Shown here: positions 2,496-16,473 of the stretch, in pieces
Position numbering within the stretch: the first letter of the stretch is position 1
Layout: each line of letters starts with the position of its first letter
Assembly: GCF_010470675.1 (NCBI RefSeq)
Contig: NZ_VOIQ01000002.1
Span: 248,001-312,000 of the forward strand
Direction: 5' to 3'
DNA length: 64,000 bases
Source: Desulfovibrio sp. JC010
GTDB taxonomy: Bacteria > Desulfobacterota > Desulfovibrionia > Desulfovibrionales > Desulfovibrionaceae
The notes under the pieces: generated by a model
What the model was told of the DNA's origin: nothing
Databases searched by the model: none
Seen by the model: only the letters and a program-made list of their open reading frames with translations
Made by a program: the position numbers and the translations under genes

Positions 2496-2975
2496 TTAAC
2501 CGTTATTCCCCACGGCGGCATGTTCATGCAGCCGGAGCAGTTTTGAAGAAAAATCACTGAGTATGTCCCTATGGTCAAAGACCAGATCAGGCAGGCTGTC
2601 CAATTTAAAAAATCGTGCGCCCCCGGCATCATCCCCGGCCTGCAATGCTCCTGCGTCACGGGCCACAGCACTGTAGGTCACGCTGATGGTATGCTGGCGG
2701 TCATCCCTGCAGGGCATGGAATAAACGCCCACCAGCCCGGTCAGAACCACATCAAGCCCGGTCTCCTCTTTGGCTTCGCGCACGGCGGCGTGCTCAAGCG
2801 TCTCCCCGTAATCCACAAACCCGCCGGGCAAAGCCCAGCCCAGCGGCGGGTTATTGCGCTCAATAAGTACAACTCCAAGGGCAGGATCATAAATGACTAC
2901 ATCTACAGTGGGCACAGGATTGCGGTACAGGGGAATTTCTTCTCCGCAATTGGGACAGGATTTTGAACCGAGCAT
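2496..2975 (-). CDS. Nudix hydrolase with N-terminal zinc-ribbon-like stretch
   Basis: A 159-residue Nudix pyrophosphohydrolase. The Nudix box is complete: [20 protein letters not shown] followed by ETGLD, containing the REAKEE metal-binding helix. An N-terminal [19 protein letters not shown] segment carries two cysteines typical of Nudix proteins with a short zinc ribbon, although the second Cys pair is missing. The substrate cannot be named; family members act on nucleoside diphosphate derivatives such as ADP-ribose or ADP-sugars. Its position 30 bp upstream of glgA raises ADP-glucose or ADP-ribose turnover as an idea, but that is inference only. Confidence 0.85.
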
Positions 2976-3136: not shown

Positions 3137-3205
3137 AAAAAGGCCCCGTTGGTAATTTCCAACGAGGCCCGTTTCAGCATTTTTATCAGCAAAAGTTTGA
3201 AGGTG
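3137..3205 (-). ncRNA. Candidate sigma-54-driven small RNA, copy A (69 nt)
   Basis: The RNA is predicted from about 12 nt after the -12 element to the terminator T-run. Its first 35-40 nt (from ACCTTCAAACTTTTGC through GATAAAAATGCTGAAACG) are identical in all three copies and predicted mostly unpaired. The 3' part is a Rho-independent terminator with arms GGCCTCGTTGG and CCAACGGGGCC (3159-3169 and 3142-3152), a 6-nt loop and five Ts. Relative to copies B and C the stem carries a C-G to T-A compensatory pair. An untranslated trans-acting regulator is the best reading; no target is known. Confidence 0.75.
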
Positions 3206-3215
3206 ATTTGTTTAT

Positions 3216-3231
3216 TGCATCAGGTGTGCCA
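3216..3231 (-). promoter_or_regulatory. Sigma-54 (-24/-12) promoter, sRNA unit A
   Basis: The minus strand reads TGGCACACCTGATGCA, matching the sigma-54 consensus TGGCAC-N5-TTGCW except for A instead of T at one position. The invariant GG and GC dinucleotides have the correct spacing. The predicted start is about 3205. The distance from the proximal palindrome is identical in all three units. Confidence 0.8.
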
Positions 3232-3321
3232 AAACTTCAAAACAGACACAAACAATACATAATACACTGATATATCAACAATTAAACCCTGCCGACATTT
3301 ACCCCGCACAGTACAAAAACA

Positions 3322-3389
3322 GTACAATAAATTTTACCAGCTATGCCGACAGCCTTCAAAACCGGGATCGGGGGTAAAATTTTTTTTAC
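3322..3389 (-). promoter_or_regulatory. Enhancer-like palindrome pair, sRNA unit A
   Basis: Two 16-bp imperfect palindromes lie at 3374-3389 (GTAAAAAAAATTTTAC on the minus strand) and 3322-3337 (GTAAAATTTATTGTAC). The general form is GTAAAA-N4-TTTTAC. Their centres are 52 bp apart, exactly as in units B and C. The position 100-170 bp upstream of a -24/-12 promoter is what is expected for binding sites of a sigma-54 activator; the activator itself is not identifiable here. Confidence 0.7.
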
Positions 3390-3594
3390 TGCTCTCGCGC
3401 TCACGAGTCAGCGCAATAGGATTAAAGAAATCTCACCCTATATTAAAACCAAGGCCACTCTACTCCCAAATGCAATTCGACACATCAGGCAAGGCTTGTA
3501 GCCATATTTATAATCAATAAATGTGGGTGACTTTTTGTTTTATTAGTATATGGGATCATTGATCAGTCGCGATTAGCGATGTAAATTACAAAAA

Positions 3595-4470
3595 CTAAAG
3601 CTTATCAAAAGCCTCAGCAGCATTAAAGCTGGAACGCACAAGCGGCGCACAGAACATATGCGGTACACCCAATTTTTTCCCGTACTGCGCGTACTCATCA
3701 AACACCGATGGTTCCACATACCGTTTTACCGCCGGGTGGTCCTTTGTGGGGCGCATGTACTGGCCGATGGTGATGATGTCGCAGTTTATGGCCGCGAGAT
3801 CGTCCATGACCTCATAGACCTGCTCGTCAGTTTCGCCGAGGCCGACCATGAGGCCGGATTTGGCGTGAATGTCGCTGAGCTGTTTGACTCGCTCGATGAG
3901 TTCGAGGCTTTGCTTGTAATCGGCCTGCGGGCGGATTTCCGGGTAGAGTGCGGGCGGGGTTTCCACATTGTGGTTGATCACGTCCGGCTTGACGGCGATG
4001 ACGGTTTTGAGTGCATCAAGGTTGCCCTTGAAGTCCGGGATGAGCACTTCAATTTTGCACTGGGGAAGTTCGGCGCGGATGCGTTCGATGCATTCCGCAA
4101 AATGGGCCGCTCCGCCGTCAGGCAGGTCATCACGGGTAACCGAAGTGATGACCGCGTACTGCAGTTCCAGACGTTTGACCGCTTCGGCCACGCGGCGCGG
4201 TTCGTCAGCATCAAGCGGCTCGATCAAGCCCGGACAGATGTTGCAGAAGGCACAGTTGCGGGTGCAATTGTTGCCCATGATCAGAAAGGTGGCCACCTTG
4301 CGCGAAAAACAGTCCCAGCAGTTGGGGCATTTGGCGGACTGGCAAACCGTGTTTAGGTTCAGGTCTTCCAGCATTTTGCCGGTTTCGTTGAAAGTCCTTC
4401 CGGTGGGCAGCTTAACCCGCAGCCACGGCGGTATCCGTAAATATTTTTCCGAATTCTTCTCTGAAGACAT
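3595..4470 (-). CDS. lipA: Lipoyl synthase
   Basis: LipA is a radical SAM enzyme that inserts two sulfurs into protein-bound octanoyl groups. The 291-residue protein has the auxiliary cluster cysteines at 43, 48 and 54 (CQSAKCPNCWDC, which has one extra Cys at 51), the radical SAM motif C69-x3-C73-x2-C76, and the C-terminal RSSFNA motif whose serine ligates the sacrificial cluster. The ATG start at 4470 has a GAGGA Shine-Dalgarno 8 nt upstream that lies inside lipB, so the 59-nt overlap with lipB appears genuine and suggests translational coupling. Together they form the endogenous lipoylation pathway. Confidence 0.97.
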   Translation of the reverse strand: MSSEKNSEKYLRIPPWLRVKLPTGRTFNETGKMLEDLNLNTVCQSAKCPNCWDCFSRKVATFLIMGNNCTRNCAFCNICPGLIEPLDADEPRRVAEAVKRLELQYAVITSVTRDDLPDGGAAHFAECIERIRAELPQCKIEVLIPDFKGNLDALKTVIAVKPDVINHNVETPPALYPEIRPQADYKQSLELIERVKQLSDIHAKSGLMVGLGETDEQVYEVMDDLAAINCDIITIGQYMRPTKDHPAVKRYVEPSVFDEYAQYGKKLGVPHMFCAPLVRSSFNAAEAFDKL

Positions 4471-5056
4471 TTTTTACTTCCTCGGTAGAAATTTCTGTAC
4501 CCGCCTCCCGTGAAAGGGAAGTGGGGTGTGCGCCGTGCAGCCCGCAGAGGGTGATGGCCTCGAAAAGTTTCATCTCACTGGAAACATTAAATGACAAGCC
4601 GTGGTAGGTGATCCATTTTTTGACCCCGATACCGATGGAGCAGAGCTTGCCGGGACCGACCCAGACTCCGGGCCTGCCTTCGCTCCTTGCCGCCTCCACG
4701 CCGAACCGGGCCGCTGTGCGTATCGCAGTCTCTTCCATATCATGAAAGAATTTCTTGATCCCGCCGCGCCGTTTTTCAATGCGCATGACCGGGTAAACCA
4801 CCAGCTGACCGGGATAATGGCAGGTAATATTGCCGCCGCGTGCGGTCTGGACCACCTCAACCCCCATCTGTTTGAGGGCCTCCTCACTGATGAGCAGGTT
4901 TTCCAGCCCGCCCTGCCGGCCCAACGTGACCACAGGAGGATGCTCCAAAAGATAGAGGGCATCGCATGCGTTACCCTCCATCACCTGACTCAATCTCTGT
5001 AATTGAATCTTTTCTGCTTCCTGATGGGGGATTAATCCTAAGTCTATAAAATCCAT
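4412..5056 (-). CDS. lipB: Octanoyl-[acyl-carrier-protein]-protein N-octanoyltransferase
   Basis: LipB moves octanoate from ACP to the lipoyl domains of 2-oxoacid dehydrogenases and the glycine cleavage H protein. The 214-residue protein shows the family motifs PPVVTLGRQG, ARGGNITCHYPGQLVVYPV, the LCSIGIGVKKWITYHG segment with the catalytic lysine, and ITLCGLHGAHPTSL with the acyl-thioester cysteine. It is upstream of lipA in the same transcript and overlaps it by 59 nt, so the LipB C-terminal residues share DNA with the LipA N-terminus. The start ATG at 5056 has no clear Shine-Dalgarno, so the exact start is less sure. Confidence 0.95.
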   Translation of the reverse strand: MDFIDLGLIPHQEAEKIQLQRLSQVMEGNACDALYLLEHPPVVTLGRQGGLENLLISEEALKQMGVEVVQTARGGNITCHYPGQLVVYPVMRIEKRRGGIKKFFHDMEETAIRTAARFGVEAARSEGRPGVWVGPGKLCSIGIGVKKWITYHGLSFNVSSEMKLFEAITLCGLHGAHPTSLSREAGTEISTEEVKNVFREEFGKIFTDTAVAAG

Positions 5057-5100
5057 AAGAGTCTTTTGATGTGCTTCGCACTTTTGATGAAAAGATTTTG

Positions 5101-5282
5101 CCTCAGGCGGCCCTTCGGGGACCAGAGAACCCTTTGGAAAGGGTTCTCTGGACTCTCCTAAACTTTTTATTAGGGCTTCGCCGCCTTGGACGCAGAATTG
5201 ATCAATCTATGACAAAATAAAAACTACTAAAACGTTTTGGGATTCTTAAACCCTTTTGGAAAAGGGTTTAAGCCGCCGGAGG
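5101..5282. repeat. Composite intergenic palindrome, two hairpin cores
   Basis: The left core at 5122-5151 is a perfect 14-bp inverted repeat (CCAGAGAACCCTTT / AAAGGGTTCTCTGG). The right core at 5245-5272 is CTTAAACCCTTTT / AAAAGGGTTTAAG. Outer boxes GCC(T)C..GGCGGC at 5101 and CCGCCGGAGGC at 5273-5283 face each other, and the inner box AGGGCTTCGCC occurs at 5172. The same modules recur throughout the window. The unit sits between the Rsm22-like gene (3' end) and lipB (5' end). Confidence 0.85.
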
Positions 5283-5288
5283 CATTTC

Positions 5289-6455
5289 TTACTTCTTCCG
5301 CTTATCGCTTTCTCTGATAGGCAGCGGTACGATCAAAGAACCGGATTTTTCGTCCCGTTTTTCCTCTTCAGGGATGGGCATACCGATAAGTCCGCCGGGA
5401 TACAAGGTTTTTGCCCCGCCTTGTGCGGAAAGCAGAATCTGCCCCTGCGCGGCACAGCCGTACTGTCCGAAACCGCCGCCATCAAGGCGAAAGGATTCAG
5501 ATACCGCACGGATGAGCATTTCGCCCTCGCGGGGAGTTTCCACTTCTTCCTTGCGCAGCCCCACGTAGAGGAAACTCAGGCTGACGTTGTCCTTTTCAAG
5601 ACGGCATTCGGCGGAAAGCTTCTGCAGCCATGCCGGGGCGTGGTCGGAATCGAAATTGAAATGGCACCATGCTTTACCCTGATCGCCGCTCATGGGACAT
5701 TCTTCGGTATGGGTACAGGGACCGAGAATGGGGAACCCAGCTTCAACGAATTCGTTACGGATAACGGACAGAACGCGGCCGGAACGGCGGATGCCCGGTT
5801 CGATGATCAGGATGCGTCCTTCCGGGGCCAGCTTGTGGACCATGGACAGGCAGAATTTTTCCGCCCATACCGGAAGCGGGATGCGTGTTCCGGAAGAAGC
5901 TTCGTTGACCATGTTGGCAGTGACCAGCAGATGCGCTTTTTCGCGCAGCTTGGAGGTGGAGCCGCCTTTGACGTTGACCATGCGCCACGGGGATTTTTCC
6001 CCGGCCATGGCTTCGAAGAGTTTGTTGCCTTCGCGCATGGGCTTGGGTGTGCGGTCCACGTTGATGAAGGTCAGCTTCTTTTCGCGCAGGTCCGGCCTTG
6101 CGATCCACAGGGCCTGCGCCACGGTAAGCGGTCCTGCTCCGAGGTCAACAACCACGCCGTTGTCGGGCAGTTTGATATCCAGCCCCTGAAACAGGCGTGC
6201 CAGACGGTACAGGTTCCAGGGCAGGAAATAACGCAGGTAGGCGTTAAGGCTGCGCGGATCGCCCATGTAGTCGTTGGACAGGTTGGAACGTTCCCCGGTC
6301 AGGTCGCGGGAAAGATCACGGATGGCGTATTTCAGTTCCTTGCTGAAGCGGCTCTTCAAGGGAACGGTTTTCTGTAAAATTTTTATGTAATTATCCAACT
6401 CCTTGGATACTTCCTTGGTCGGCAGGGGGAAAAGTGAACTTACTTTAATAGACAT
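5289..6455 (-). CDS. Rsm22-family (mitoribosomal small-subunit type) SAM methyltransferase
   Basis: A 388-residue protein with a SAM-binding core VVVDLGAGPLTVAQALWIA around residues 104-122 and an acidic motif INVDRTPKP after strand 2. The diagnostic Rsm22 cysteine-rich segment is present as GPCTHTEECPMSGDQGKAWC followed by HF. Rsm22 family members are linked to small ribosomal subunit assembly, but the bacterial members' substrate is not established. Its start overlaps the 3' end of the ASKHA/ferredoxin gene by 11 nt, so the two are probably co-translated; a functional tie to corrinoid or Fe-S chemistry is conceivable but unproven. Confidence 0.8.
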   Translation of the reverse strand: MSIKVSSLFPLPTKEVSKELDNYIKILQKTVPLKSRFSKELKYAIRDLSRDLTGERSNLSNDYMGDPRSLNAYLRYFLPWNLYRLARLFQGLDIKLPDNGVVVDLGAGPLTVAQALWIARPDLREKKLTFINVDRTPKPMREGNKLFEAMAGEKSPWRMVNVKGGSTSKLREKAHLLVTANMVNEASSGTRIPLPVWAEKFCLSMVHKLAPEGRILIIEPGIRRSGRVLSVIRNEFVEAGFPILGPCTHTEECPMSGDQGKAWCHFNFDSDHAPAWLQKLSAECRLEKDNVSLSFLYVGLRKEEVETPREGEMLIRAVSESFRLDGGGFGQYGCAAQGQILLSAQGGAKTLYPGGLIGMPIPEEEKRDEKSGSLIVPLPIRESDKRKK

Positions 6456-7971
6456 ATTTAAAAATCATCCTCTCAAGGTATTTCTGTCCGAAATCGCTGC
6501 TCCCGGCCAGTTCCAGAACTTTGGAACGGCCCGGCAGCCCGGCGGCGAAATCCCTTGCTTGTTGATTGTGCGTTAAAATTATTGATCCCGTGAGGGATGT
6601 ATTTCCTGCTGCGCGGGTGATGCTTGCGCTTCCCGCAGGAATAAATCCGGTTGCCACCAGATCATTTATATTTACATGCTGGCCCATGGCCCCGCCGAGG
6701 ATCAGTTCTTTGAGGTCGGCAGGCGATAGTCCCGCTGCGTCCAGCAGTGCGGACATGGCGAGATTGAAGGCCGCTTTTACTTTTAATATTTCTTCCACAT
6801 CCGAAGCCGGGAGGGTAAGTCCCTCATAACCCAGATCGAGGGCCGGAGTCCCGTTTATTTCGGTCATCTTGTCAGCCAATTTTGCCGCAAAGGGGGTGCC
6901 CCCGGCTGCGAACTGTCCTTCGCGGGTCAGCACACCGGATTTGAGCAATACGGAACAAAGCGAAAGGTAGCCCGTTCCAGTGATACCCGGTTTCTGCTGC
7001 TCAACCTTTTCCGCTCCAATCAGCGAAGGCGAGAGTCCCAGCGGAGTAAGGTTGAATGCGGAGACCGCGCCCGGTCCGGCAGTGCGTCCGTTGCTCATGC
7101 CGACTCCCTCAAGGGCCGGTCCCATGGGCACGGAGCAGACAATGTATTTATCTTCGGACAGGCAGAGCACGAATTCGCCGTTGGTTCCGAGGTCGGCGAA
7201 CAGATACGGGGGCTGCGCTTTGGGTTCGGAGAAATTCAGGGCCACAATTCCGGCTGTTATATCCGCACCAACAAACGGGGCCAGATGTGGCGGGATGTAC
7301 GCTTCAGGCAGTCCTGCGTCAAGACTTACTTTTTCCCCTCCTTTATGAGGCAGGGAATAGGGTGCGCGGCAAAGGCCCTGCACATCGTCCTGCGCGAGGA
7401 TGGAAGTCATGGACGGGTTGCCGGAAACAACCAGTTCTTTGATCGGCCCGGTTTCAGCAATTATAGTGCTCAGCCGTTCTGTTACAAGGCTGGAAAGGGT
7501 TTTACGCTGCCTGGGTTCTGCAGCAAAGGCCAGCCGGGACATGACCTCACTGCCCAGACCTATCTGGGGATTGAGTTCCTGCCCGGATTTGACAGTCTCG
7601 CCATCAAGGGTGAAGGCCCAGTGCAGCCCGGTGGTACCTAGGTCCACGGCAAGGGCCAGATTGTCCGGGAGCTCTGATGAAAATTTATCTGATACGCGCG
7701 GGACCACCCGTTCCGGCTTAGGCAGGAAAATTTCAGCAGCTTGGGCAGGGTGCAGACAGGAGAGCCGCCACCCGGACTCGATTTCTGCGGGGGAGAATTT
7801 TTGCAGTTCTTCTTTGCGTGGCTGTGGCGGTTCGGATTCAAAGCGCACCTTGCACAGCCCGCAACGGCCCATGCCGGAACACAGCGGCACTCCCTGAAAT
7901 GCTCCATTCAGGAAAAGGGCTTGGGCCATGTTCAGCCCGGCTGCTGGAGGGGTTTTAATTTTTTTACCCAT
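6445..7971 (-). CDS. ASKHA-domain corrinoid-activation-type protein with N-terminal [2Fe-2S] ferredoxin domain
   Basis: A 508-residue COG3894-type protein (DUF4445; RACE/RamA-like group). The N-terminal plant-type ferredoxin pattern C31-x5-C37-x2-C40-x31-C72 is complete. It is followed by an ASKHA ATPase-like fold with LALAVDLGTTGLHWAFTLDG (about residue 108 on), FADLGTNGEFVL, and a C-terminal LILGGAMGQHVNINDLVATG. Family members reduce inactive Co(II) corrinoid proteins in methyl-transfer systems using ATP. No methyltransferase/corrinoid pair is adjacent, so the client protein is unknown. It overlaps the downstream Rsm22-like gene by 11 nt. Confidence 0.85.
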   Translation of the reverse strand: MGKKIKTPPAAGLNMAQALFLNGAFQGVPLCSGMGRCGLCKVRFESEPPQPRKEELQKFSPAEIESGWRLSCLHPAQAAEIFLPKPERVVPRVSDKFSSELPDNLALAVDLGTTGLHWAFTLDGETVKSGQELNPQIGLGSEVMSRLAFAAEPRQRKTLSSLVTERLSTIIAETGPIKELVVSGNPSMTSILAQDDVQGLCRAPYSLPHKGGEKVSLDAGLPEAYIPPHLAPFVGADITAGIVALNFSEPKAQPPYLFADLGTNGEFVLCLSEDKYIVCSVPMGPALEGVGMSNGRTAGPGAVSAFNLTPLGLSPSLIGAEKVEQQKPGITGTGYLSLCSVLLKSGVLTREGQFAAGGTPFAAKLADKMTEINGTPALDLGYEGLTLPASDVEEILKVKAAFNLAMSALLDAAGLSPADLKELILGGAMGQHVNINDLVATGFIPAGSASITRAAGNTSLTGSIILTHNQQARDFAAGLPGRSKVLELAGSSDFGQKYLERMIFKYVY

Positions 7972-8008
7972 GTTCAGGTTTTTAACTGCTTCTTACAAAT
8001 AAAAGGTT

Positions 8009-8100
8009 TTGAAGAGTCCAGAGAAACTTTTGCAAAAGTTTCTCTGGCCGCCGGAGGCGAAATCTTCCCATAAAAGCGCGAAGCGCATCAAAACAAAAAA
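8009..8100. repeat. Intergenic palindrome, single core plus tail box
   Basis: The core at 8018-8047 is a perfect inverted repeat CCAGAGAAACTTTT / AAAAGTTTCTCTGG, preceded by GTTTTGAAGAGT and followed by CCGCCGGAGGC. A tail AAAAGCGCGAAGCGCATCAAA (8077-8097) recurs near 41867-41884 and, diverged, near 21466-21484. The unit sits between cbiK and the ASKHA gene. Confidence 0.8.
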
Positions 8101-8168
8101 TTAACCGCACCTACATAATGTATATGCGGTGCGGAGTACAATCAAGCAGCAAATTTTAAAGGCTGGAA

Positions 8169-8966
8169 TTATTTATCAAGTTCACTGATGGCTTTTTCCA
8201 GCTTATCCATCCATCGCTTTGCGAAAATATCGAATTCGCCCACTCCCTGTACCACCGGGATCGGTTCAATTCCCCGTGAGGCAACAACATTTTTCCATGA
8301 TTCTTCGTGTTCTCCGGCCATATCTTTTTTTACATGGTTCCCGGCCCCGAAGAGCAGGGGAAGCAGGTAGGCTTTTTTCAGTCCGGATTCTTTAATGCGG
8401 TCGCTGATTTTTTCAATGCCGTCTTCGGAGTTCAGTTTGCCGAGGTAGGCGTTTTTGTCCTTTGCTTCCAGCACTTCTTTGAACTTGTCGTAGATGGAAT
8501 TGCCGCTGTCGGAATATTTGGAGCCGTGGGCCACCAAGATGAGGGCTTCATTTTGCGGATCACGTTCTTCCAGCAGGTTTAGGATTATATCGGAAATTTC
8601 GTTTATCTCCTGATCATTGGTCAGCAGCGGTTCGCCCAGCACTGCTTTTTCAAATTCAATCTCACCTTTTTCCACCCGGTCGAGAAGTCGACTGATATTA
8701 GTGAATTCTGTGCCGGGGATAACATGCAGGGACTGTACAACCACATGGGTGACACCTTCGGCGGAGAGGTTCTCCAGATTTTGTTTCACGGAGGGCAGCT
8801 TCTGGCCCTGTTCACGGAGTTTTTTGAGTACATGCCCGGAAGTAAAAGCACTGTATACCGGGATGTCCGGGTGGGCCTCTTTAGCCATCTTCAAAATATT
8901 GCCCAGAGCCGAACTGGCGGCCCTGTTTTTTGATCCGTGTGCTGCGAAAAGGATGGCTTTTTTCAT
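8169..8966 (-). CDS. cbiK: Sirohydrochlorin cobaltochelatase, cytoplasmic type
   Basis: CbiK inserts Co2+ into sirohydrochlorin in the anaerobic (early-cobalt) cobalamin route and belongs to the class II chelatases. The 265-residue protein begins MKKAILFAAHGSKN, and the two chelatase halves each carry an AHGSK motif (residues 9-13 and about 145-149). The metal-binding loops VVQSLHVIPGTEF and LLFGAGNHVKKDM contain the expected histidines. There is no signal peptide, so it corresponds to the cytoplasmic form rather than the periplasmic heme-binding form known in Desulfovibrio vulgaris. No other cob/cbi gene is in the window. Confidence 0.93.
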   Translation of the reverse strand: MKKAILFAAHGSKNRAASSALGNILKMAKEAHPDIPVYSAFTSGHVLKKLREQGQKLPSVKQNLENLSAEGVTHVVVQSLHVIPGTEFTNISRLLDRVEKGEIEFEKAVLGEPLLTNDQEINEISDIILNLLEERDPQNEALILVAHGSKYSDSGNSIYDKFKEVLEAKDKNAYLGKLNSEDGIEKISDRIKESGLKKAYLLPLLFGAGNHVKKDMAGEHEESWKNVVASRGIEPIPVVQGVGEFDIFAKRWMDKLEKAISELDK

Positions 8967-9076
8967 CTACTGTTTTCCTGCGCTGATGGTTGTCTTTCTC
9001 GTGAACACGCATGCATAGCAGACAAAGGCGGTAGAGAAAAGGTTTATCCTGTTTGAGGAAATTTGCAGGTCGGGGC

Positions 9077-10852
9077 CTATGTTTCCCCTTCCAGCTGCGA
9101 AGCGATCAGTGTTTCGGTATCCACCACAAGGGCATCGTGCTCGCCCATCATGCCGAAGCCGAGGATGGGCAGTTTGTAGATGGAATTGACCGGCAGGGTG
9201 AATCCGGTGACCACCGCCTTTTGCTGGCGCAGTACCTCATCCACCATGATTGCGGCTACGGTATCGCCAAGCTTGACCAGAATCACTTTGGGGATGACAT
9301 CTTCCGCAGGGGCAGGAAGGTCGAAGACCTTGTACATGCGGATCAGGGGGCGAACCGTGCCACGTACGGATACGGTTTCCCGGCCGTCGGGCAGGTCGGT
9401 GAATTCTTTTTTTTCCGGCTCGTACACTTCAAGAACTTCCCGGCTGGGGAAGATGAAAGTTTCCGGTCCCACGGTAGTGACCAGCGCATCGACAATGCCT
9501 TCATTTACCGAGCGGCTTAAGGGGATGGCGATGGTGAAGGTGGAGCCCTGCCCCAGTTCACTGGTGATGGAGACTTTGCCGTCCAGTGTGTTCTGGATGG
9601 CGGTGACCACTGCGTCCATGCCTACCCCGCGTCCTGAAATGTCAGTCACGGAACTGGCTGTGGAAAAGCCGGACTGGAGAATGAATTCGTAAATTTCTTC
9701 CTTGGCGTATTTTTTTTCCGGATCGGCAAGCCCGCGTTCAAGGGCTTTGCTGAGCAGGATGTCGGCATCAAGCCCTTTGCCGTCATCGACGATTTCAATA
9801 TAGGCGAATTCGCCTTTGCGGAAAGCATTCAGTTGGACATTGCCGACCTCGTCCTTGCCGCACATCTGGCGGTCTTCCGTAGATTCAATGCCGTGGTCGA
9901 GGGCGTTACGCAGCAGGTGGACCAGCGGTTCATTCAGGCATTCCACAATGGTCTTATCAAGAGCCAGTTCATCCCCGGTAATGGTGAACTTGATGCGTTT
10001 GTCCAGCTTCTGGGAGGTGGATTTGACCAGCCTGTGCATGGGCATGAAAATCTGCTTCAGGGGCACCAGCCGGATTTCATCCACTTCCGACTGCAGGTTG
10101 CGGATGACTTTATCCAGCTCGGACAGGCTGGAGGAAATTTTGGAGATATTGTCCGTTTTAGTCTGGGCGATGACAGCATAGGTCACCATCAGCTTACCCA
10201 CCAGCTCAATAAGTGAATCCAGCTGCTGGGTGGAAACGCGGATGGAGGAGATAGCCTGCGCGTCTTTCTTTTTTGCCGGGCCGGGTTGGACTTTGCTGCT
10301 TTTTTCTTCGGTGGGGATTTCTTTTGCCGCTGCGGCCGATTCCGGCTTTGAGCCTTCTGCCGGCCCCGCTTCCTGCATCAGTGGTGCTTCTTCCGGTTCT
10401 GTGGAAGATGTTTCTGCGGAAGGTTTTGCTATTTCCCAGCCGTCATTTTCGTCCGGAGTTTCTCCGGTCATGGCCAGCATCTCGGCCATCATTTCCTGTT
10501 CGTATTTATCCGGTTCCGTCGCGAGGGTTTCAGTTTCCAGAATATCGCATGCAGGTTCCGTTTCTTCTCTTGAATCCACAGACGCGCCGCCTTTATCAAG
10601 CAGCCCGCCGATGCAGTAGAAGAATTTTTTCTGGGCTTCGGCAATATCCAGCAGAGAGGTTATCAGTTCCGGTGTGACGGGAGTAATGCCGTCAGTCAGC
10701 ATGTCCATGAGGGCGATGATCTGGGCCGACCTCATCTGGGCATTATCAAGGCCCATGGCTTTCAAAATATCATTAATATCACCGGAACCGTGTTCTAGTC
10801 CGATGATTGATTCTTGAAGCTGGCCTATGCAGCTGGAAATACTGTCCTTCAT
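9077..10852 (-). CDS. CheA-like histidine kinase lacking a canonical HPt (P1) domain
   Basis: A 591-residue kinase. After about 100 helical residues without an HxxKG phospho-acceptor motif come an acidic Pro/Glu-rich linker (to about 200), a P3 dimerisation helix (TQQLDSLIELVGKLM), and an HATPase with N-box HLLRNALDHGIE, G1 region EIVDDGKGLD and G2 region GRGVGMDAV. A CheW-like C-terminal domain ends in GEHDALVVDTETLIASQ. Normal CheA carries its substrate histidine in P1; here that job is probably done by the HPt-STAS protein encoded just upstream. The ATG at 10852 follows GAGG closely; an in-frame TTG nine bases upstream would overlap the stop of the previous gene. Confidence 0.88.
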   Translation of the reverse strand: MKDSISSCIGQLQESIIGLEHGSGDINDILKAMGLDNAQMRSAQIIALMDMLTDGITPVTPELITSLLDIAEAQKKFFYCIGGLLDKGGASVDSREETEPACDILETETLATEPDKYEQEMMAEMLAMTGETPDENDGWEIAKPSAETSSTEPEEAPLMQEAGPAEGSKPESAAAAKEIPTEEKSSKVQPGPAKKKDAQAISSIRVSTQQLDSLIELVGKLMVTYAVIAQTKTDNISKISSSLSELDKVIRNLQSEVDEIRLVPLKQIFMPMHRLVKSTSQKLDKRIKFTITGDELALDKTIVECLNEPLVHLLRNALDHGIESTEDRQMCGKDEVGNVQLNAFRKGEFAYIEIVDDGKGLDADILLSKALERGLADPEKKYAKEEIYEFILQSGFSTASSVTDISGRGVGMDAVVTAIQNTLDGKVSITSELGQGSTFTIAIPLSRSVNEGIVDALVTTVGPETFIFPSREVLEVYEPEKKEFTDLPDGRETVSVRGTVRPLIRMYKVFDLPAPAEDVIPKVILVKLGDTVAAIMVDEVLRQQKAVVTGFTLPVNSIYKLPILGFGMMGEHDALVVDTETLIASQLEGET

Positions 10853-10857
10853 TATCC

Positions 10858-11595
10858 TCAAACTCCGGTGTTGTTCAGGAAACTTTCCCTGCTTTCAAAA
10901 ACAGTGAGATAGCGCTGGAAGCCCCAGGAATAAAAAGTGCTCGTACAATGGCTGTTCATGCCGGTGATGCCTATTTCACAGGTCTCGGAAAATGAAGCAA
11001 TAAGCTCGAAAAGGGCGGACCCTACTGACATTGTTAATCCGAAATCAAGAAGGAGTCTGTCTTCCCCGTTTATGGACAGCAGGCTTTCTTCAACCATTTT
11101 AAGTTGTTCGGAGCTGTAAAGTCTGTTTACCTGCAGGTTGAAGATCAATCCTTCCGGGAGTTTTTCGATTTCAATGGGGTTTATGCCGGTTTCGTCTACT
11201 GCTCCGGTTTTTTGTCCCCCGCCGGAGAGCCTCGCTTCAATGTCATCTGTAAGGGACTGGTCATAGCTGCCCGATTCGCGCAGTTGCTCGATGAGCATGA
11301 AAATTGTGTTTACGGATTCAATGGCCAGAGCGATCTGCATTAAGTCCGCTTCAACTTCTCCGGCCTGCATTTTTTTCAGGAAATCTTCGACTTTGTGGGT
11401 GAAGGTGGAGGCCGGTTCAAACCCGGACATAAATCCAGTGACGCCCTTGATGGTGTGCAGAGGACGTGAAAGGATTTCGATCCCTTCCTCGATGCGTTGC
11501 TCATCAAGGAGATCAATGCCTTCCAGTACCTGCGGATAGTACTTGTCGTTCACTTCCGAGAAGAATTCTTCAACAAGGGAATCGTCTTCACTCAT
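10858..11595 (-). CDS. HPt-STAS fusion protein, probable phospho-acceptor of the adjacent kinase
   Basis: A 245-residue protein with an N-terminal HPt four-helix domain containing RPLHTIKGVTGF (His47 in the HxxKG motif) and a C-terminal STAS-like half from about residue 145 (GLIFNLQVNRLYSSEQLKMV, LLLDFGLTMSVGSALFELIA). A serine lies where anti-sigma antagonists are often phosphorylated, but I cannot confirm that alignment. It is between the receiver gene and the CheA-like gene with near-zero spacing. The most economical reading is that P1 has been moved to this protein and fused to a STAS module, linking kinase output to a partner-switching or localisation function. Confidence 0.8.
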   Translation of the reverse strand: MSEDDSLVEEFFSEVNDKYYPQVLEGIDLLDEQRIEEGIEILSRPLHTIKGVTGFMSGFEPASTFTHKVEDFLKKMQAGEVEADLMQIALAIESVNTIFMLIEQLRESGSYDQSLTDDIEARLSGGGQKTGAVDETGINPIEIEKLPEGLIFNLQVNRLYSSEQLKMVEESLLSINGEDRLLLDFGLTMSVGSALFELIASFSETCEIGITGMNSHCTSTFYSWGFQRYLTVFESRESFLNNTGV

Positions 11596-11619
11596 CGCAT
11601 GTGCTCCATCAGCAGCAGT

Positions 11620-12015
11620 TTATTTGTTCATCAGCCCGATTTTCTTAAGTTCTTCGTAAAGTTTTTCCCGTTCCACCGGTTTTACTATGAAGGCGGATGC
11701 CTCAACGTCATGAAAGGAACGGATTACAGTTTTGGGGTCATCAAGTGCGGTGGTCATGATCACCTTGCAGTGGTCGGACAGCCCTTTTTCCTTTTCAAAG
11801 GCCCTGATTTCTTCAAGGGCGGATAAACCGTCCTGTTCCGGCATCATGATATCCATGAGCAGCAGGGTATAAGGGTTGTTTTCCTCATATGCCAGTTTGA
11901 ATGCTTCAACCGCTTCTTTCCCGTTTACCGCTACATCAATCACGAATAGCGGGGCAAGAAAGGTCGAGAGCAGTTTTCGGCCAACAAATTCGTCCTCAGC
12001 AATCAGCGCGCGCAT
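11620..12015 (-). CDS. CheY-like single-domain response regulator
   Basis: A 131-residue receiver with no output domain. The acidic pair is Glu7-Asp8 (LIAEDEF), the phospho-acceptor Asp55 (LLLMDIMMPEQDG), the conserved Thr is in VIMTTALDD, and the Lys is in AFIVKPVE. The start ATG at 12015 is preferred over one four codons upstream because a GGAGG sits 6 nt before it. It is the first gene of a three-gene unit with the HPt-STAS and CheA-like genes, so it is the likely phosphate sink or output of that pathway. Confidence 0.9.
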   Translation of the reverse strand: MRALIAEDEFVGRKLLSTFLAPLFVIDVAVNGKEAVEAFKLAYEENNPYTLLLMDIMMPEQDGLSALEEIRAFEKEKGLSDHCKVIMTTALDDPKTVIRSFHDVEASAFIVKPVEREKLYEELKKIGLMNK

Positions 12016-12172
12016 TAATTCCTCCATGAGAATTTATATCAGCTGAAATGATTACATATCATTTTTTTTTAATCAATAAAATGTCAATGTTTATAATGTT
12101 GCATAAAGGGTAAATAGTCACTTGCGGAAGCCGTGCTTGCAAACTTGGCAAAGGTTGGGTACCCAGTACGCC

Positions 12173-12763
12173 ATGGAAAGACAGAGAACACCCCAAAGAG
12201 AGGCAAGAGTCAGGGAAGTGCTGGCAAAGCGCCAGAAGGATTTTACCCTTATTATTGATAATGTCTGGGATCCGCACAATGTTTCAGCCATTCTCAGGAG
12301 CTGCGATGCCTTCGGTATTTACGGTATCCATCTTTATTATACTGTTTCACAATGGCCGGAGCTGGCGAAAAAATCTTCCGCTTCCGGCAAGAAGTGGGTG
12401 GAACGCACCAGACATACCGATCCGGTTAAAATGGTCGGTGGATTACGCGATCAGGGCTATCAGGTCCTGAGAACAGGATTTTCCGAGACCGCAAAGCCGC
12501 TCATGGATTTCGACCTCAGCACTCCTTCTGCTGTAATTCTCAGCAATGAGCACAGCGGAACCGCTCCGGAACTGGCAGAACTGGTGCCCGATGAAGTCTA
12601 CATTCCCATGCAGGGCATGATTCAGAGCTTCAACGTATCCGTTGCCGCCGCACTGATTCTCTATCACGGATTCTCGCAGCGTTTTGCCAAGGGCATGTAC
12701 GACAATCCTTCTTTTTCACCAGAAGAGATGGAGAAGTTAACTGCAGAGTGGCTGGCCAGATAG
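12173..12763 (+). CDS. TrmH/SpoU-family RNA 2'-O-methyltransferase
   Basis: About 196 residues with the three SPOUT/SpoU motifs: NVSAILRSCDAFG (motif 1, RNA-binding Asn/Arg), VILSNEHSGTAPELAE (motif 2) and MIQSFNVSVAAALILYH (motif 3, knotted SAM pocket). The N-terminal TPQREARVREVLAKRQKDFTL is typical of TrmH (tRNA Gm18) rather than the larger RlmB. The start at 12173 gives the usual N-terminus; a TTG at 12122 is in frame and also possible. It is divergent from the chemosensory operon and convergent with the glycosyltransferase gene. Confidence 0.85.
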   Translation: MERQRTPQREARVREVLAKRQKDFTLIIDNVWDPHNVSAILRSCDAFGIYGIHLYYTVSQWPELAKKSSASGKKWVERTRHTDPVKMVGGLRDQGYQVLRTGFSETAKPLMDFDLSTPSAVILSNEHSGTAPELAELVPDEVYIPMQGMIQSFNVSVAAALILYHGFSQRFAKGMYDNPSFSPEEMEKLTAEWLAR

Positions 12764-12785
12764 CTTATAAAGCACCATCTGCTGC

Positions 12786-14450
12786 CTATAAACTCTCAGC
12801 AAGCTCTTTCCATTTACGTTCAACATCCTGCCAGAGCATGGCCAGATCTTTTCCGAAAAGATTGTTCAGGTCATGCTCGCTGTATTTGCTTTCCAGCTTG
12901 ATCTTATTGCCGAAAACCTGAGCCATGGAACGTACGTTGCCGGCCTTGGCAAGGCTTGAATGCTGGATATGGCCGATACGCAACTGTCCGGCATAGACGT
13001 GTTCGTATCCGCCCAGCGCGGCCCGCAGGTCCCGTTCAAGATCATCAAACTGGGTGGGATTGAAGCGCACATCAAAATCACCGCACTTGTGGATTGCCTC
13101 CATGTTCAGCATATGGCAGCAGCCGGAAACATGCATTGCCGGACGGGTATAGGAAAACTGCCCGTAATCAAAGCCGTTGCGGCAGCTGTCAAAAACCTTG
13201 ATGTGTTCGGTCAGTCCCTCAATCTGTGAGCTTCCGTTTCCGGGCGGGAAAAGATGGTAGTCTGCGGACTGCAATGAACGCGGGGTGCCTGTAGAAGTAA
13301 TCCTGCAGCCCACAGCACCGGGGTTGCCGTAGTGCTTTGCGGTTGCCAGCAGTTCTTCCAGCCAGTTTCTTTCCAGTTCCACATCATCGTCCAGAAAAAC
13401 AGCCCATTTGGATTTGCGCACTTCCGGTTCGGCCAGCAGCCAGTTGCGGGCCGCCGGGGCACCTACGTTAACCTGCAGGTGGATCGGTTTGTAGTGTCCA
13501 TTCTTAAATAGATAGCGTGACTCTTGCACAACCTGCCCGGTGCTGTCGTCAGAACCGTTGTTCAAGGCGTATATCCGGGCATTGCCGATATTTGATGCGG
13601 CCACGTTCTTGAGGGTGTTTTCAATCAGCTGTCCGTTGTTCCATGAGTAAAGCAGGATGGCTACTTCATCTGAATTTTCAAGGGCACTCCCTGTGTCAAT
13701 GGGATTCAGCAGTCCGTGAAGTTTCTGGCCCCAGTTCAGGTTCCAGATATTTTCTTTCCACAAAGCGGTCAGTATTTCCGTGCCTTCCCCGGTCCGCCCC
13801 GCGCGCAGCAGCAGTTCGGCGCGCATGTAGTCCATCCATAGAGACCAGATGTCATGATCAAGCTTTTCAAGTTCGCCCAGAGTTTCTCCAATGGAGCCGT
13901 ATAAAAAATTGTACTGCACCTTAAGGCGTTGTTCCAATTGGGAAAAGTCTTCATTCCAGTTGACCAGATCCAGTGCTGTTCGTGGCAGTTCCGGGTTACC
14001 CATGCGCAGCAGGGTGTCCCACGAGTGGGTCAGCCAGCTCAAACCGTCCGGGCCGCGCAGCAGGGGGAAGAGGTGGCGTACAATAAGAGCCTGATCCCCG
14101 GCTTGCAGCAGGCTGCTTAGGTCTTCAAGCGGAATGTCCGATACCGGGCTGGAAATCAGGTTCTGCAGCATGCGGATCAGTGTTTCCGGGCATGCGGAGT
14201 CATTGAGTCCCATACATTTTATAGCTGCTGTCCGGTCCAGAGGGTTCTGCTGCCAGGCCAGCAGGGCCAGCCCTGCGCTTATTTCTGAAAATTGCGGTGT
14301 TGCGGCTGAAAGCTGTTCAAAAATATTTATCAACCCGTTTTGGTGGGAGAATTCCTCAGTTCCCAGCACCCAGAGGGGAACGGAGTTTTTAACAGCGGTA
14401 AGGAAGGAGTATATTTTCTCTGTACTGAAATCATTTGTCGCGGCAGTCAT
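12786..14450 (-). CDS. Glycosyltransferase family 2-like protein with long helical N-terminal region
   Basis: A 554-residue protein. The first roughly 260 residues are helical with no recognisable domain. Then comes a GT-A fold: VAILLYSWNNGQLIENTLKN, ARIYALNNGSDDST, VGAPAARNWLL and the metal-binding WAVFLDDDVELERNWLEEL, followed by GAVGCRIT and a C-terminal DFDVRFNPTQFDDLERDLRA acceptor region. The start at 14450 has GGAG 7 nt upstream and is preferred over an upstream in-frame TTG. The acceptor and sugar are unknown. It could serve surface polysaccharide or protein glycosylation; no glycan cluster is nearby. Confidence 0.78.
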   Translation of the reverse strand: MTAATNDFSTEKIYSFLTAVKNSVPLWVLGTEEFSHQNGLINIFEQLSAATPQFSEISAGLALLAWQQNPLDRTAAIKCMGLNDSACPETLIRMLQNLISSPVSDIPLEDLSSLLQAGDQALIVRHLFPLLRGPDGLSWLTHSWDTLLRMGNPELPRTALDLVNWNEDFSQLEQRLKVQYNFLYGSIGETLGELEKLDHDIWSLWMDYMRAELLLRAGRTGEGTEILTALWKENIWNLNWGQKLHGLLNPIDTGSALENSDEVAILLYSWNNGQLIENTLKNVAASNIGNARIYALNNGSDDSTGQVVQESRYLFKNGHYKPIHLQVNVGAPAARNWLLAEPEVRKSKWAVFLDDDVELERNWLEELLATAKHYGNPGAVGCRITSTGTPRSLQSADYHLFPPGNGSSQIEGLTEHIKVFDSCRNGFDYGQFSYTRPAMHVSGCCHMLNMEAIHKCGDFDVRFNPTQFDDLERDLRAALGGYEHVYAGQLRIGHIQHSSLAKAGNVRSMAQVFGNKIKLESKYSEHDLNNLFGKDLAMLWQDVERKWKELAESL

Positions 14451-14646
14451 CTGTTGTCTCCATATGTTCAAATGCTGATTGCGTATTTATTAAGCCAAAC
14501 CAATGATAAAGTCATGCTGCTTCTGGGCGGGGTGCTGCAGTTATTTGTAATGACATTTCCGACATTTCAAAAGTTGCTGGACATAAGGCCCAAAACTGGT
14601 ATTACTAGTCGCTCCGTATGCTGTTATATGTTTTGGAGTTAAAGGA

Positions 14647-15255
14647 ATGAGTGAGCAGGAAGCTGTAAATATCATCAGGACCGGAGGAGTGCTGGTCTAT
14701 CCCACGGAAACCCTTTTTGCCGTTGGCGCGGACGCCATGGATGAAAAGGCGGCGAATCGTGTTGCGCGCATTAAAGGTCGTCCGGTCTCCAAGCCGTTAC
14801 CGTTGATTATCGGCAGTATTGAGCAGCTTGATCTGGTAACTGAAGCCATCTCCCCCGAGATTCTGAAACTTACCCGTGAATTCTGGCCCGGACCGCTTTC
14901 AATTCTGGTGAAAGCCCGTGAAGAACTGCCTTCCGCAGTGAAGGATTCCCGGGGTTATACCTCCGTGCGCTGGACCGAGCATCCCCTTGCCGCCAACCTG
15001 TGTCTCAATGCACGCACACCTCTCATCGCCACCAGTGCCAACATGAGTGGCAAACCGGGCACCGGCATTGCCGCAGAGCTTGATGAAGAGCTGACTATGA
15101 TGGTGGAGGGAGTCTTTGACGGACAGCCCGGCCCTAAAGGCGGAGAGCCTTCAACTGTGGTTGAGCCGTTCAAGGATAATCGTATTAAGATTTACCGCGA
15201 CGGAGTGGTTACACGAGAGCAGTTGGTAAGAGCGGGGTTTGTTATTGTAGATTAG
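14647..15255 (+). CDS. tsaC: L-threonylcarbamoyladenylate synthase (Sua5/YrdC family)
   Basis: The enzyme forms threonylcarbamoyl-AMP from threonine, bicarbonate and ATP for t6A37 in ANN-decoding tRNAs. The 202-residue protein has the family motifs GGVLVYPTETLFAVGADA (residues 13-30), IKGRPVSKPLPLIIGS, FWPGPLSILV and TSANMSGKPG. It is a single YrdC domain without the Sua5 C-terminal extension. RNA modification is also represented by mtaB (26658-27935), which acts on t6A, so both genes of that branch are in this window. A strong terminator follows 25 bp after the stop. Confidence 0.93.
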   Translation: MSEQEAVNIIRTGGVLVYPTETLFAVGADAMDEKAANRVARIKGRPVSKPLPLIIGSIEQLDLVTEAISPEILKLTREFWPGPLSILVKAREELPSAVKDSRGYTSVRWTEHPLAANLCLNARTPLIATSANMSGKPGTGIAAELDEELTMMVEGVFDGQPGPKGGEPSTVVEPFKDNRIKIYRDGVVTREQLVRAGFVIVD

Positions 15256-15280
15256 GCTTGTACCGGAAAAGATATATCAA

Positions 15281-15311
15281 GACCTGTCCTCAAACGAGGG
15301 CAGGTCTTTTT
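15281..15311 (+). terminator. Rho-independent terminator of tsaC
   Basis: Arms GACCTGTCCTC (15281-15291) and GAGGGCAGGTC (15296-15306) form an 11-bp stem with one G-T wobble and a 4-nt loop, followed by five Ts. It insulates sRNA unit B from tsaC. Confidence 0.92.
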
Positions 15312-15321
15312 CTTTGGAGCA

Positions 15322-15389
15322 GTAAAAAATATTTTACCCCGGATTACGGTTTTGGGTGCCTTTTTTTATATGGGTAAAATTTATTGTAC
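15322..15389 (+). promoter_or_regulatory. Enhancer-like palindrome pair, sRNA unit B
   Basis: Palindromes GTAAAAAATATTTTAC (15322-15337) and GTAAAATTTATTGTAC (15374-15389) have starts 52 bp apart. The distal site is followed by CCCCGGATT, as in unit C. The DNA between and after the sites is not conserved except at these positions, which argues for protein binding. Confidence 0.75.
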
Positions 15390-15479
15390 TATCTTGGAGC
15401 TGTGCGGGAGAAATGCTGTCTGGCTGTAAGAGTTGATATTTCAGTGTGTTACGATGTGTTTGTTTGTGTTTTAAAACTT

Positions 15480-15495
15480 TGGCACACCAGATGCA
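15480..15495 (+). promoter_or_regulatory. Sigma-54 (-24/-12) promoter, sRNA unit B
   Basis: TGGCACACCAGATGCA lies with GG at 15481-15482 and GC at 15493-15494, the required spacing. It starts 106 bp after the start of the proximal palindrome, the same as in units A and C. The predicted start is about 15506. Confidence 0.83.
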
Positions 15496-15505
15496 GTAAA
15501 CAAAT

Positions 15506-15574
15506 TACCTTCAAACTTTTGCTGATAAAAATGCTGAAACGGGCCTCGTCGGAAACTACCGACGGGGCCTTTTT
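15506..15574 (+). ncRNA. Candidate sigma-54-driven small RNA, copy B (69 nt)
   Basis: The same RNA body as copies A and C. The terminator arms are GGCCTCGTCGG (15542-15552) and CCGACGGGGCC (15559-15569) with loop AAACTA and five Ts. The hairpin ends 4 nt before the stop codon of the convergent secreted-protein gene, so it may also help end that transcript. A short reading frame starting at the internal ATG is unlikely to be translated: there is no Shine-Dalgarno, and differences between copies preserve the stem rather than the protein. Confidence 0.8.
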
Positions 15575-15578
15575 CATT

Positions 15579-15899
15579 TTATTCACATTTTTCTTCCATT
15601 GTTTTTTTCACTTGAAAGAGCGGCGCACCTGTCAGCAGCGGCACGGAGGGCTGGACTGCGAATTCACCTGAGAGCAGGTCGAAACGTTTACCGTCCTGTG
15701 TTTTGATTGCGTATGATTTCATTCCCGGATTCACATAGACAATATGTGTTGTAAGCCCCTGTGCATTAACCTGTGTCCCGGAGACTCTGAGACAGTTTTC
15801 AATTGATCTCGGCATGTCATTTGCCCAGTTGTCGGAGGCCATAGCCGGAGCTGCAAAAAGAAGTATGGCTGCAGTAAGGCTGATCACTAGTGTGCGCAT
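15579..15899 (-). CDS. Small secreted protein of unknown function
   Basis: A 106-residue protein with a clear Sec signal peptide (MRTLVISLTAAILLFAAPAMA, cleavage about 21/22) and a roughly 85-residue mature domain containing two cysteines (IENCLRV and the C-terminal EKCE), possibly a disulfide in the periplasm. The start at 15899 has AGAGGA 7 nt upstream; a longer reading frame upstream is not needed. I do not recognise the family. The gene is flanked on both sides by sRNA units B and C, and its 3' end abuts the terminator of copy B. Confidence 0.75.
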   Translation of the reverse strand: MRTLVISLTAAILLFAAPAMASDNWANDMPRSIENCLRVSGTQVNAQGLTTHIVYVNPGMKSYAIKTQDGKRFDLLSGEFAVQPSVPLLTGAPLFQVKKTMEEKCE

Positions 15900-16015
15900 T
15901 GTCATGTCCTCTGTTTGATAGTTGGTAATGGTCATCTTATTATGAATGTTATGTGTTTGATTATCACGCCACGAATGTCCCTGCAAATATGGGGATATGT
16001 GGCTCAGCAGGTTTG

Positions 16016-16083
16016 GTAAAAAATATTTTACCCCGGATTGTGGTTTTGAAGGGTGTTCTCTGTGTGGGTAAAATTTTTTGTAC
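16016..16083 (+). promoter_or_regulatory. Enhancer-like palindrome pair, sRNA unit C
   Basis: GTAAAAAATATTTTAC (16016-16031) is identical to the distal site of unit B. GTAAAATTTTTTGTAC (16068-16083) is the proximal site. The start-to-start distance is 52 bp, as in A and B. Confidence 0.75.
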
Positions 16084-16173
16084 GAATTCGGGATGATTTC
16101 GGTTTAGTTTGCGATGGCTATTTCATTCGTTATTACAGTGCCTTAGGTTGGATTATGAGTGTATTCTACGTTT

Positions 16174-16189
16174 TGGCACACCTGATGCA
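16174..16189 (+). promoter_or_regulatory. Sigma-54 (-24/-12) promoter, sRNA unit C
   Basis: TGGCACACCTGATGCA is identical to the promoter of unit A. It begins 106 bp after the start of the proximal palindrome. The predicted start is about 16200. Confidence 0.83.
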
Positions 16190-16199
16190 ATAAACAAAT

Positions 16200-16268
16200 C
16201 ACCTTCAAACTTTTGCTGATAAAAATGCTGAAACGGGCCCCGTCGGAAATTGCCGACGGGGCCTTTTT
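16200..16268 (+). ncRNA. Candidate sigma-54-driven small RNA, copy C (69 nt)
   Basis: The body is identical to copies A and B through GCTGAAACGGGCC. The terminator arms GGCCCCGTCGG (16236-16246) and CCGACGGGGCC (16253-16263) have a full C-G pair where A and B have a T-G wobble. Five Ts follow. It is about 690 bp downstream of copy B on the same strand, so B and C probably arose by tandem duplication around the secreted-protein gene, or were inserted independently. Confidence 0.8.
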
Positions 16269-16473
16269 CATTTTGTGCGAGGCAAACACCATTGCGTAAG
16301 TTTGATATGTTGGATGCTAAGATCTTACGAAGATTTAAGAGTCCCTCCGGGTAACAGGCTTGAGAGTTTGTTAGGGGCAGGAGTGGGCAACATAGTATTA
16401 GAATAAATAATCTATATGAGGAGCCTTTAACTCTTTTTTATAACAATGCTTTTTTATCTTTTTATAAAAAACC

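Follow-up and report, generated by a model that had tools for sequence, protein, structure and literature searches.

The Qrr RNAs of Vibrio are several redundant short RNAs that end in a terminator hairpin and are transcribed from sigma-54 promoters under an NtrC-type response regulator (LuxO), and NrsZ of Pseudomonas is a sigma-54-dependent small RNA (sRNA) under a regulator of the same type. LhrC, for which Rfam holds a model, has a CU-rich pairing motif and is not known to depend on sigma-54. Passages of one report describe the LhrC RNAs of Listeria as multi-copy RNAs under a two-component system (PMC4132741). For Desulfovibrio vulgaris, available passages of two papers describe four sigma-54 non-coding RNAs (ncRNAs) with the activators DVU0653, DVU0679, DVU1419 and DVU2359 (PMC4641369), list Dv_sRNA2 among the sigma-54 ncRNAs (PMC3333781), and report the ncRNA regulators to be biased to free-living species (PMC4641369, PMC3333781). 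Here we describe three units in a 64,000-nucleotide (nt) stretch of Desulfovibrio sp. JC010 (the window; all coordinates are positions in it), each carrying two upstream activating sequences (UAS), a sigma-54 promoter and a short predicted RNA. They apparently represent an sRNA family not yet catalogued, of a kind, redundant sRNAs driven by sigma-54, that is already known from Qrr.

Direct reading and alignment of the sequence placed the units at 3137-3390 (U1, minus strand), 15321-15574 (U2, plus strand) and 16015-16268 (U3, plus strand), within one base of where an earlier, sequence-only reading of this DNA had put them. Each begins with two UAS, followed by a -24/-12 promoter and then by a predicted RNA of about 68 nt with a terminator hairpin. 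In this order the elements lie at 3373-3390, 3321-3338, 3216-3231 and 3137-3204 in U1, at 15321-15338, 15373-15390, 15480-15495 and 15507-15574 in U2, and at 16015-16032, 16067-16084, 16174-16189 and 16201-16268 in U3. The promoter proposed for each unit is there without a mismatch (TGGCACACCNGATGCA, three exact occurrences in the window), with the sigma-54 class hallmark TGGCAC-N6-TGC, GG at -24 and GC at -12, exact in all three. When up to three mismatches are allowed, the window holds 5 matches against 2.2 expected, a count so near expectation that only the three exact matches are meaningful. Two palindromes per unit had also been proposed, and this stood in part: the first is near perfect (GTAAAAAATATTTTAC and a close variant), whereas the second is imperfect (GTAAAATTTATTGTAC and similar). 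Both nevertheless fit one motif, with the consensus gGTAcAAAATTTTgTACc, and are 52 base pairs (bp) apart in every unit. The distal sites of U1, U2 and U3 score 21.2, 21.8 and 22.7 and all three proximal sites 20.4; on the other strand, the distal and proximal sites of U1 score 20.6 and 20.7. Single matches to this motif are unremarkable, since 14 reach a score of at least 13 in the window and 8 of them lie outside the units.

The predicted RNA starts at an invariant A, 13 nt past the last C of the promoter, a start that in U1 follows from promoter spacing. This gives a length of 68 nt rather than the 69 nt first suggested, while the invariant part and the terminator that had been described are both present: a 32-nt stretch of the body, TTCAAACTTTTGCTGATAAAAATGCTGAAACG, occurs three times in the window free of mismatches and never in 100 shuffles. 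The predicted fold has a weakly paired 5' part, then a 12-bp hairpin and U residues, with z-scores from -4.3 to -5.0 across the three units (-4.6 in U1). A BLAST search of the organism's own genome returned only these three copies, and two further rows that are antisense matches to the terminator hairpin.

Relatives were surveyed in samples of 17 genomes of the genus, 199 of the family and 348 of the order. With a window copy as query, BLAST found matches in 14 of the 17 genus genomes and 15 of the 199 family genomes, one of these (G165) being matched by the hairpin region only. A pattern of the promoter plus the RNA 5' end, at up to two mismatches, recovered two to three copies in every one of the 17 genus genomes and was present in 67 of the 348 order genomes against 2 of 348 for the reversed control, a few of the 67 being probably due to chance. 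We fetched 60 stretches around pattern matches, covering part of the 67 positive genomes; after one minus-strand match (L092) had been removed as chance, these and the three window copies gave 78 units. An ungapped alignment of their 74 distinct 49-base sequences shows A(C/U/A)CUUC and a pyrimidine run at a constant distance 3' of the promoter. A sequence model of these 49 columns, promoter and RNA 5' end (model R2), matched 255 of the 348 order genomes at E<=0.01, where ordinary sigma-54 promoters may be among the matches weaker than 1e-6, most of which were left unread, and 137 at E<=1e-6; genomes used to build the model match by construction. The 137 strict positives span 22 of 59 genera and three families (f1, f4 and f6). 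Thus the family is present in the Desulfovibrionaceae, as the sequence-only reading had proposed, but it is not confined to one taxonomic family, as f4 and f6 of the same order carry it too. Carriers range from more than 4 Mb down to about 1.4 Mb in genome size and have one to several copies. A partial pattern scan of genome contigs, which did not recover some known carriers, gave 4 stretches, three of them from Salidesulfovibrio or Desulfovibrio; the fourth, from Methylotenera, showed neither UAS nor terminator by eye and was set aside as chance.

The UAS pair was examined with a motif learned on the first 78 units only. Among these 78 units the two sites are 52 bp apart in 30, 50-53 bp in 50 and 40-41 bp in 17. 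These spacings correspond to about five and four helical turns, as expected for activator oligomers that bind on one face of the DNA. For the held-out test we took 40 R2 matches from outside the model, which were among the strongest and not a random draw, and excluded one (L271) with too little upstream DNA. A UAS score of at least 12 was reached in 38 of the remaining 39 (shuffles: mean 0.45, maximum 2), and a helically phased pair was found in 31 of 39 (shuffles: mean 0.01, maximum 1). The 1.86 Mb of fetched DNA contained 707 sigma-54-like matches, of which 119 had a UAS pair; 117 of these also had the RNA 5' motif, a proportion that is not a genome-wide rate because the DNA was largely fetched around the RNA, and the remaining 2 sit beside family members. 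The distal-site pattern by itself, at up to two mismatches, is not enriched in the organism's own genome (27 places against 102 for the reversed pattern). Only in the three units does a good sigma-54 promoter lie near such a site, two other loci (L147 and L149) having loose promoter-like matches. Specificity lies in the UAS pair together with the promoter and not in a single UAS.

Downstream of the promoter, the RNA opens with an A(C/U)CUUC-pyrimidine tract that is nearly invariant and for the most part unpaired. Across 118 units, in which the RNA start was set at a fixed distance and may be a few bases off in some, nt 1-14 have a mean probability of 0.83 of being unpaired (5th percentile 0.46), and pyrimidines make up 95% of nt 2-14. 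In the genus alignment there is little variation among the first 19 bases other than at the centre of the tract. Base-pairing sRNAs commonly use a conserved, open 5' end of this sort as their seed. The genus hairpin, represented by 17 distinct sequences, retains 96.6% paired cells, with 6 of its 12 pairs changed on both sides, and its covariation (0.404) exceeds that of shuffled alignments (0.271), none of which reached 0.404. These patterns indicate that the units are selected as RNA. A small open reading frame (ORF) was rejected as an explanation of the body, which differs by single-base insertions and deletions within the genus; the overlap of 60 of the 118 units with an ORF of at least 80 amino acids in any frame or strand is uninformative in G+C-rich DNA and was left unused. 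As a separate observation, members from one genus (g40) and from families f4 and f6 (L239-L241, L092-L098) contain a CCUCC stretch, which resembles the core of the 16S anti-Shine-Dalgarno sequence; the window copies are unlike these.

The central proposal of the sequence-only reading, a multi-copy sRNA family driven by sigma-54 and an enhancer, is supported by the conserved promoter, the phased UAS pair, conservation of the 5' seed, compensatory changes and covariation in the hairpin, two to three copies in all 17 genus genomes, the wide presence in the order and the lack of an Rfam match. The search of Rfam and of relatives' genomes that it had suggested indeed produced many further copies with conserved UAS spacing and no Rfam match. 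At gathering scores the window has no match in Rfam; at E up to 1 the interval 15290-16300 has 13 matches, all far below gathering scores and none to Qrr or LhrC, and 13 member loci returned only a cobalamin riboswitch and two tRNAs. By analogy, then, the family would resemble Qrr or LhrC in logic and not in sequence. With Qrr it shares redundancy, the sigma-54 promoter and the terminator hairpin, the NtrC-type regulator being a candidate here; it differs in its CU-rich seed at the very 5' end, its phased UAS pair and its phylum. With LhrC it shares multiple copies and a CU-rich motif, but LhrC is not known to depend on sigma-54, has no sequence match here and belongs to another phylum. NrsZ would be alike in its use of sigma-54, but there is no Rfam match to it here, and nitrogen control is not supported. 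The closest by taxonomy, the four D. vulgaris ncRNAs, belong to the same order and have sigma-54 promoters with activator sites; they differ in their assigned activators, a distinction made by description and not by sequence, and the reported bias of their regulators to free-living species contrasts with the present family, which has matches in genomes as small as about 1.4 Mb. Passages of a 2024 ncRNA survey of O. alaskensis mention none like it (PMC11124144), and no paper on it was found among those listed in the literature searched, a coverage outside which most subscription papers fall.

We consider it probable that the units are independent genes, each encoding a regulatory RNA of about 68 nt that is fired by sigma-54 together with one activator and acts in trans. 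In this scheme, a sigma-54 activator would bind the two helically phased UAS and loop to polymerase at the -24/-12 promoter, which would fire only when the activator's signal is on. Two to three copies would raise the dose of RNA, the single-stranded CU-rich 5' end would serve as the pairing seed on target mRNAs, and the hairpin would both end transcription and protect the RNA. From the sequences we infer transcription itself, the +1 position, the dose effect, the role of the activator and, with good but not full confidence, base pairing in trans. The members are therefore likely, on this comparative evidence, to be on-demand regulators of other genes.

Several results weigh against this scheme. 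One covariation measure, the number of further pair types, is not above shuffles, and the RNAs of two genomes (G323 and G270) are known by score, their sequences being unread. A search of the 17 genus genomes for exact complements of the two conserved halves of the seed, which did not extend to bulged or G-U pairings, gave 91 sites; 38 are the RNA genes themselves, and the 53 left compare with 97 for the reversed pattern. Neither are seed-complement hexamers clearly enriched before ATG: GAAGGT reaches 0.76 and 0.99 in genus and order DNA and GAAGGA 1.08 and 1.33, a mild excess, versus 2.1 for AAGGAG. Our best guess is that the RNAs would have specific targets with imperfect pairing.

The neighbourhood of the units was compared across 100 loci. 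U2 lies 3' of sua5 (14647-15255, plus strand; Sua5/YciO/YrdC, Pfam PF01300), the conserved upstream neighbour, whereas U1 adjoins a NUDIX hydrolase gene (2496-2975, minus strand; PF00293), the downstream neighbour in relatives, which it precedes by about 160 bp. In 29 of the 100 loci, from families f1, f4 and f6, a co-directional sua5 gene lies no more than 1 kb upstream, and in 23 of these 29 loci nudix follows downstream on the same strand (22 of the 23 in f1); 69 loci have no sua5 match at all, 68 of which have no nudix match either. As the sua5 position is common to three families, the locus beside sua5 is probably ancestral, and the other copies are tandem duplicates or lie elsewhere; 13 of 17 within-locus intervals between copies measure 284-746 bp. 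In the window this array is split, U1 being beside nudix-glgA and U2 and U3 beside sua5. U1 and U2 are inverted copies (3137-15574), and a 12-kb flip between them would restore the relatives' order glgA-nudix-RNA-sua5; the copies may thus have served as recombination sites. Between U2 and U3 there is a 135-amino-acid ORF (15579-15986) without a Pfam match, a partial relative of which occurs near the RNA in one locus (L076) among the 100. The block at 9077-12027 encodes a CheA-like kinase with a CheW domain, an Hpt-like protein just under the Pfam cut-off and a lone receiver; this kinase also occurs close to sua5 elsewhere in the genus, as well as in some loci of genera g5 and g20.

This arrangement bears on the possibility that each unit serves a following operon, such as nudix-glgA, as its 5' leader or attenuator. 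The same-strand nudix gene at most sua5 loci, and just beyond U1, is what a leader would predict, but the 68 loci with neither gene, the tandem copies that have another copy after them, and the strong terminator that ends all three window copies make it very unlikely. Multiplicity, together with copies at other sites in some genera, could instead suggest that the units are passengers of mobile elements. We find this scarcely credible, given a position beside sua5 that is common to three families and the lack of an exact-pattern match in one scan of viral contigs.

Two further readings accept a free RNA and assign it another mode of action. The RNA might be a decoy whose pyrimidine tract or hairpin titrates a protein, an idea that the multi-copy design and the short invariant tract would suit and with which the failure of the exact search to find a target agrees; each RNA has only one tract, however, no repeated protein motif was seen, and the hairpin loop differs between genera (by eye), so that we regard a decoy as unlikely. 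Alternatively, the CU-rich seed and the CCUCC stretches of some members would suit a generic anti-Shine-Dalgarno inhibitor of many messages. This is quite unlikely in our assessment: in both genus and order DNA, seed complements show at most a mild enrichment at ribosome-binding positions, and because the seed complement is not a ribosome-binding hexamer, a general blocking of ribosome sites was dropped. A stand-alone sRNA that pairs in trans with specific targets is the interpretation we retain.

Because the UAS are conserved across families, their activator is expected in all carriers. We compared activators from nine RNA-positive genomes (the comparison took in 8 of 19 matches in G035 and 8 of 15 in G253, and left out L176 of G000 and a broken activator of G303). 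One type, exemplified by L157, is found in 8 of the 9 genomes, the L156 type in 7 and the L160 type in 5; the latter two went undetected in 2 and 4 genomes and were rejected as the common activator. L157 is an NtrC-type response regulator with a receiver, a sigma-54 activation domain and a Fis-type helix-turn-helix (Pfam) and has a GSFTGA motif; directly upstream of it there is an ORF with histidine-kinase motifs (by eye). It is present in 328 of the 348 order genomes. On these grounds an L157-type response regulator is the most likely candidate, and we favour it by a modest balance of probability. L157 also fits the printed description of DVU3220 in motif and distribution, a likeness of descriptions and not a comparison of sequences: in available passages, this D. 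vulgaris regulator has a GSFTGA motif, order-wide conservation, one reported target operon (an ammonium transporter) and no known binding motif (PMC4641369, PMC3333781).

The case for L157 has evident counterweights. At E<=1e-130 it is missing in 8 of the 137 RNA-positive and 12 of the 211 other genomes, and its presence, being near-universal, gives no signal for a link with the RNA. One RNA-positive genome (G297; 98% complete, a 70-contig draft) has no L157-type activator that we could find. Around L157 and eight genus copies of its group, UAS occur as weak single sites and not in pairs, while a single UAS (15.9) is found at the locus of an L160-type activator (L196 of G050). The promoters of ammonium transporters are without a UAS pair, despite the reported binding of DVU3220 to that operon. 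Other links that we tried and rejected were nitrogen control through amtB (of 11 ammonium-transporter loci, 10 lack a UAS and one has a weak site scoring 11.2), autoregulation of an activator through UAS (the activator loci of G000, G304, G050, G035 and G253 contain no pair; single sites lie at L183, L196 and L206) and an activator gene beside the RNA (found by a motif search in 2 of the first 60 loci, adjacent in neither).

It may therefore be that the activator is a protein other than L157, for example one of the L160 type, the DVU0151-like protein of G297 or a replacement that depends on lineage; this is a serious possibility, although we lean somewhat against it. In its favour, the sole full-score activator of G297, which has the RNA, is not of the L157 type, and a single UAS lies at an L160-type locus, with no pair near L157. 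But no close relative of the G297 protein was found among the compared activators of G000 and G050, G297 is a draft whose near relative G323 (one contig, 1.4 Mb) has an L157-type protein as one of its two strong activator matches, and no L160-type activator was identified in G323, G297, G303 (where one broken activator was uncompared) or G270. The very small Desulfovibrio-like genomes G297 (L282), G323 (L285) and G303 (L291) have one to few sigma-54 activators and share one of about 865 amino acids; that of G297 has GAFTEA in place of GAFTGA and no Fis-type helix-turn-helix by eye.

Turning back to the L157-type regulator, in genus g40 a strict RNA match is absent from all 19 genomes (of 77) whose L157 is more diverged (best E >1e-197), whereas 37 of the other 58 have one. 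This association between L157 divergence and the absence of a strict match is suggestive; it is confounded by descent and could reflect shared descent or relaxed selection. An exact complement of the seed, CAAAAGGATGAAGG, was also noted 561 nt upstream of the L157 orthologue in G007 (C1:4218512) and G010 (C9:130239), where the kinase ORF is expected; such a site could possibly be a feedback target, or chance.

To our knowledge, few studies have addressed post-transcriptional control in sulfate reducers. Since the promoter, the enhancer pair and the seed of this family are all defined, its expression, activator and targets are directly testable. The family is a candidate output for a near-universal response regulator; for this regulator, should it be DVU3220, a single target operon is on record, with no binding motif described (PMC4641369). 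Tentatively, and with rather less than even confidence, we suggest that this L157 (DVU3220-like) regulator, among the best conserved sigma-54 response regulators in the order, may act chiefly by making RNA, such that an order-wide two-component signal would have a short, 5'-seeded RNA as its main output.

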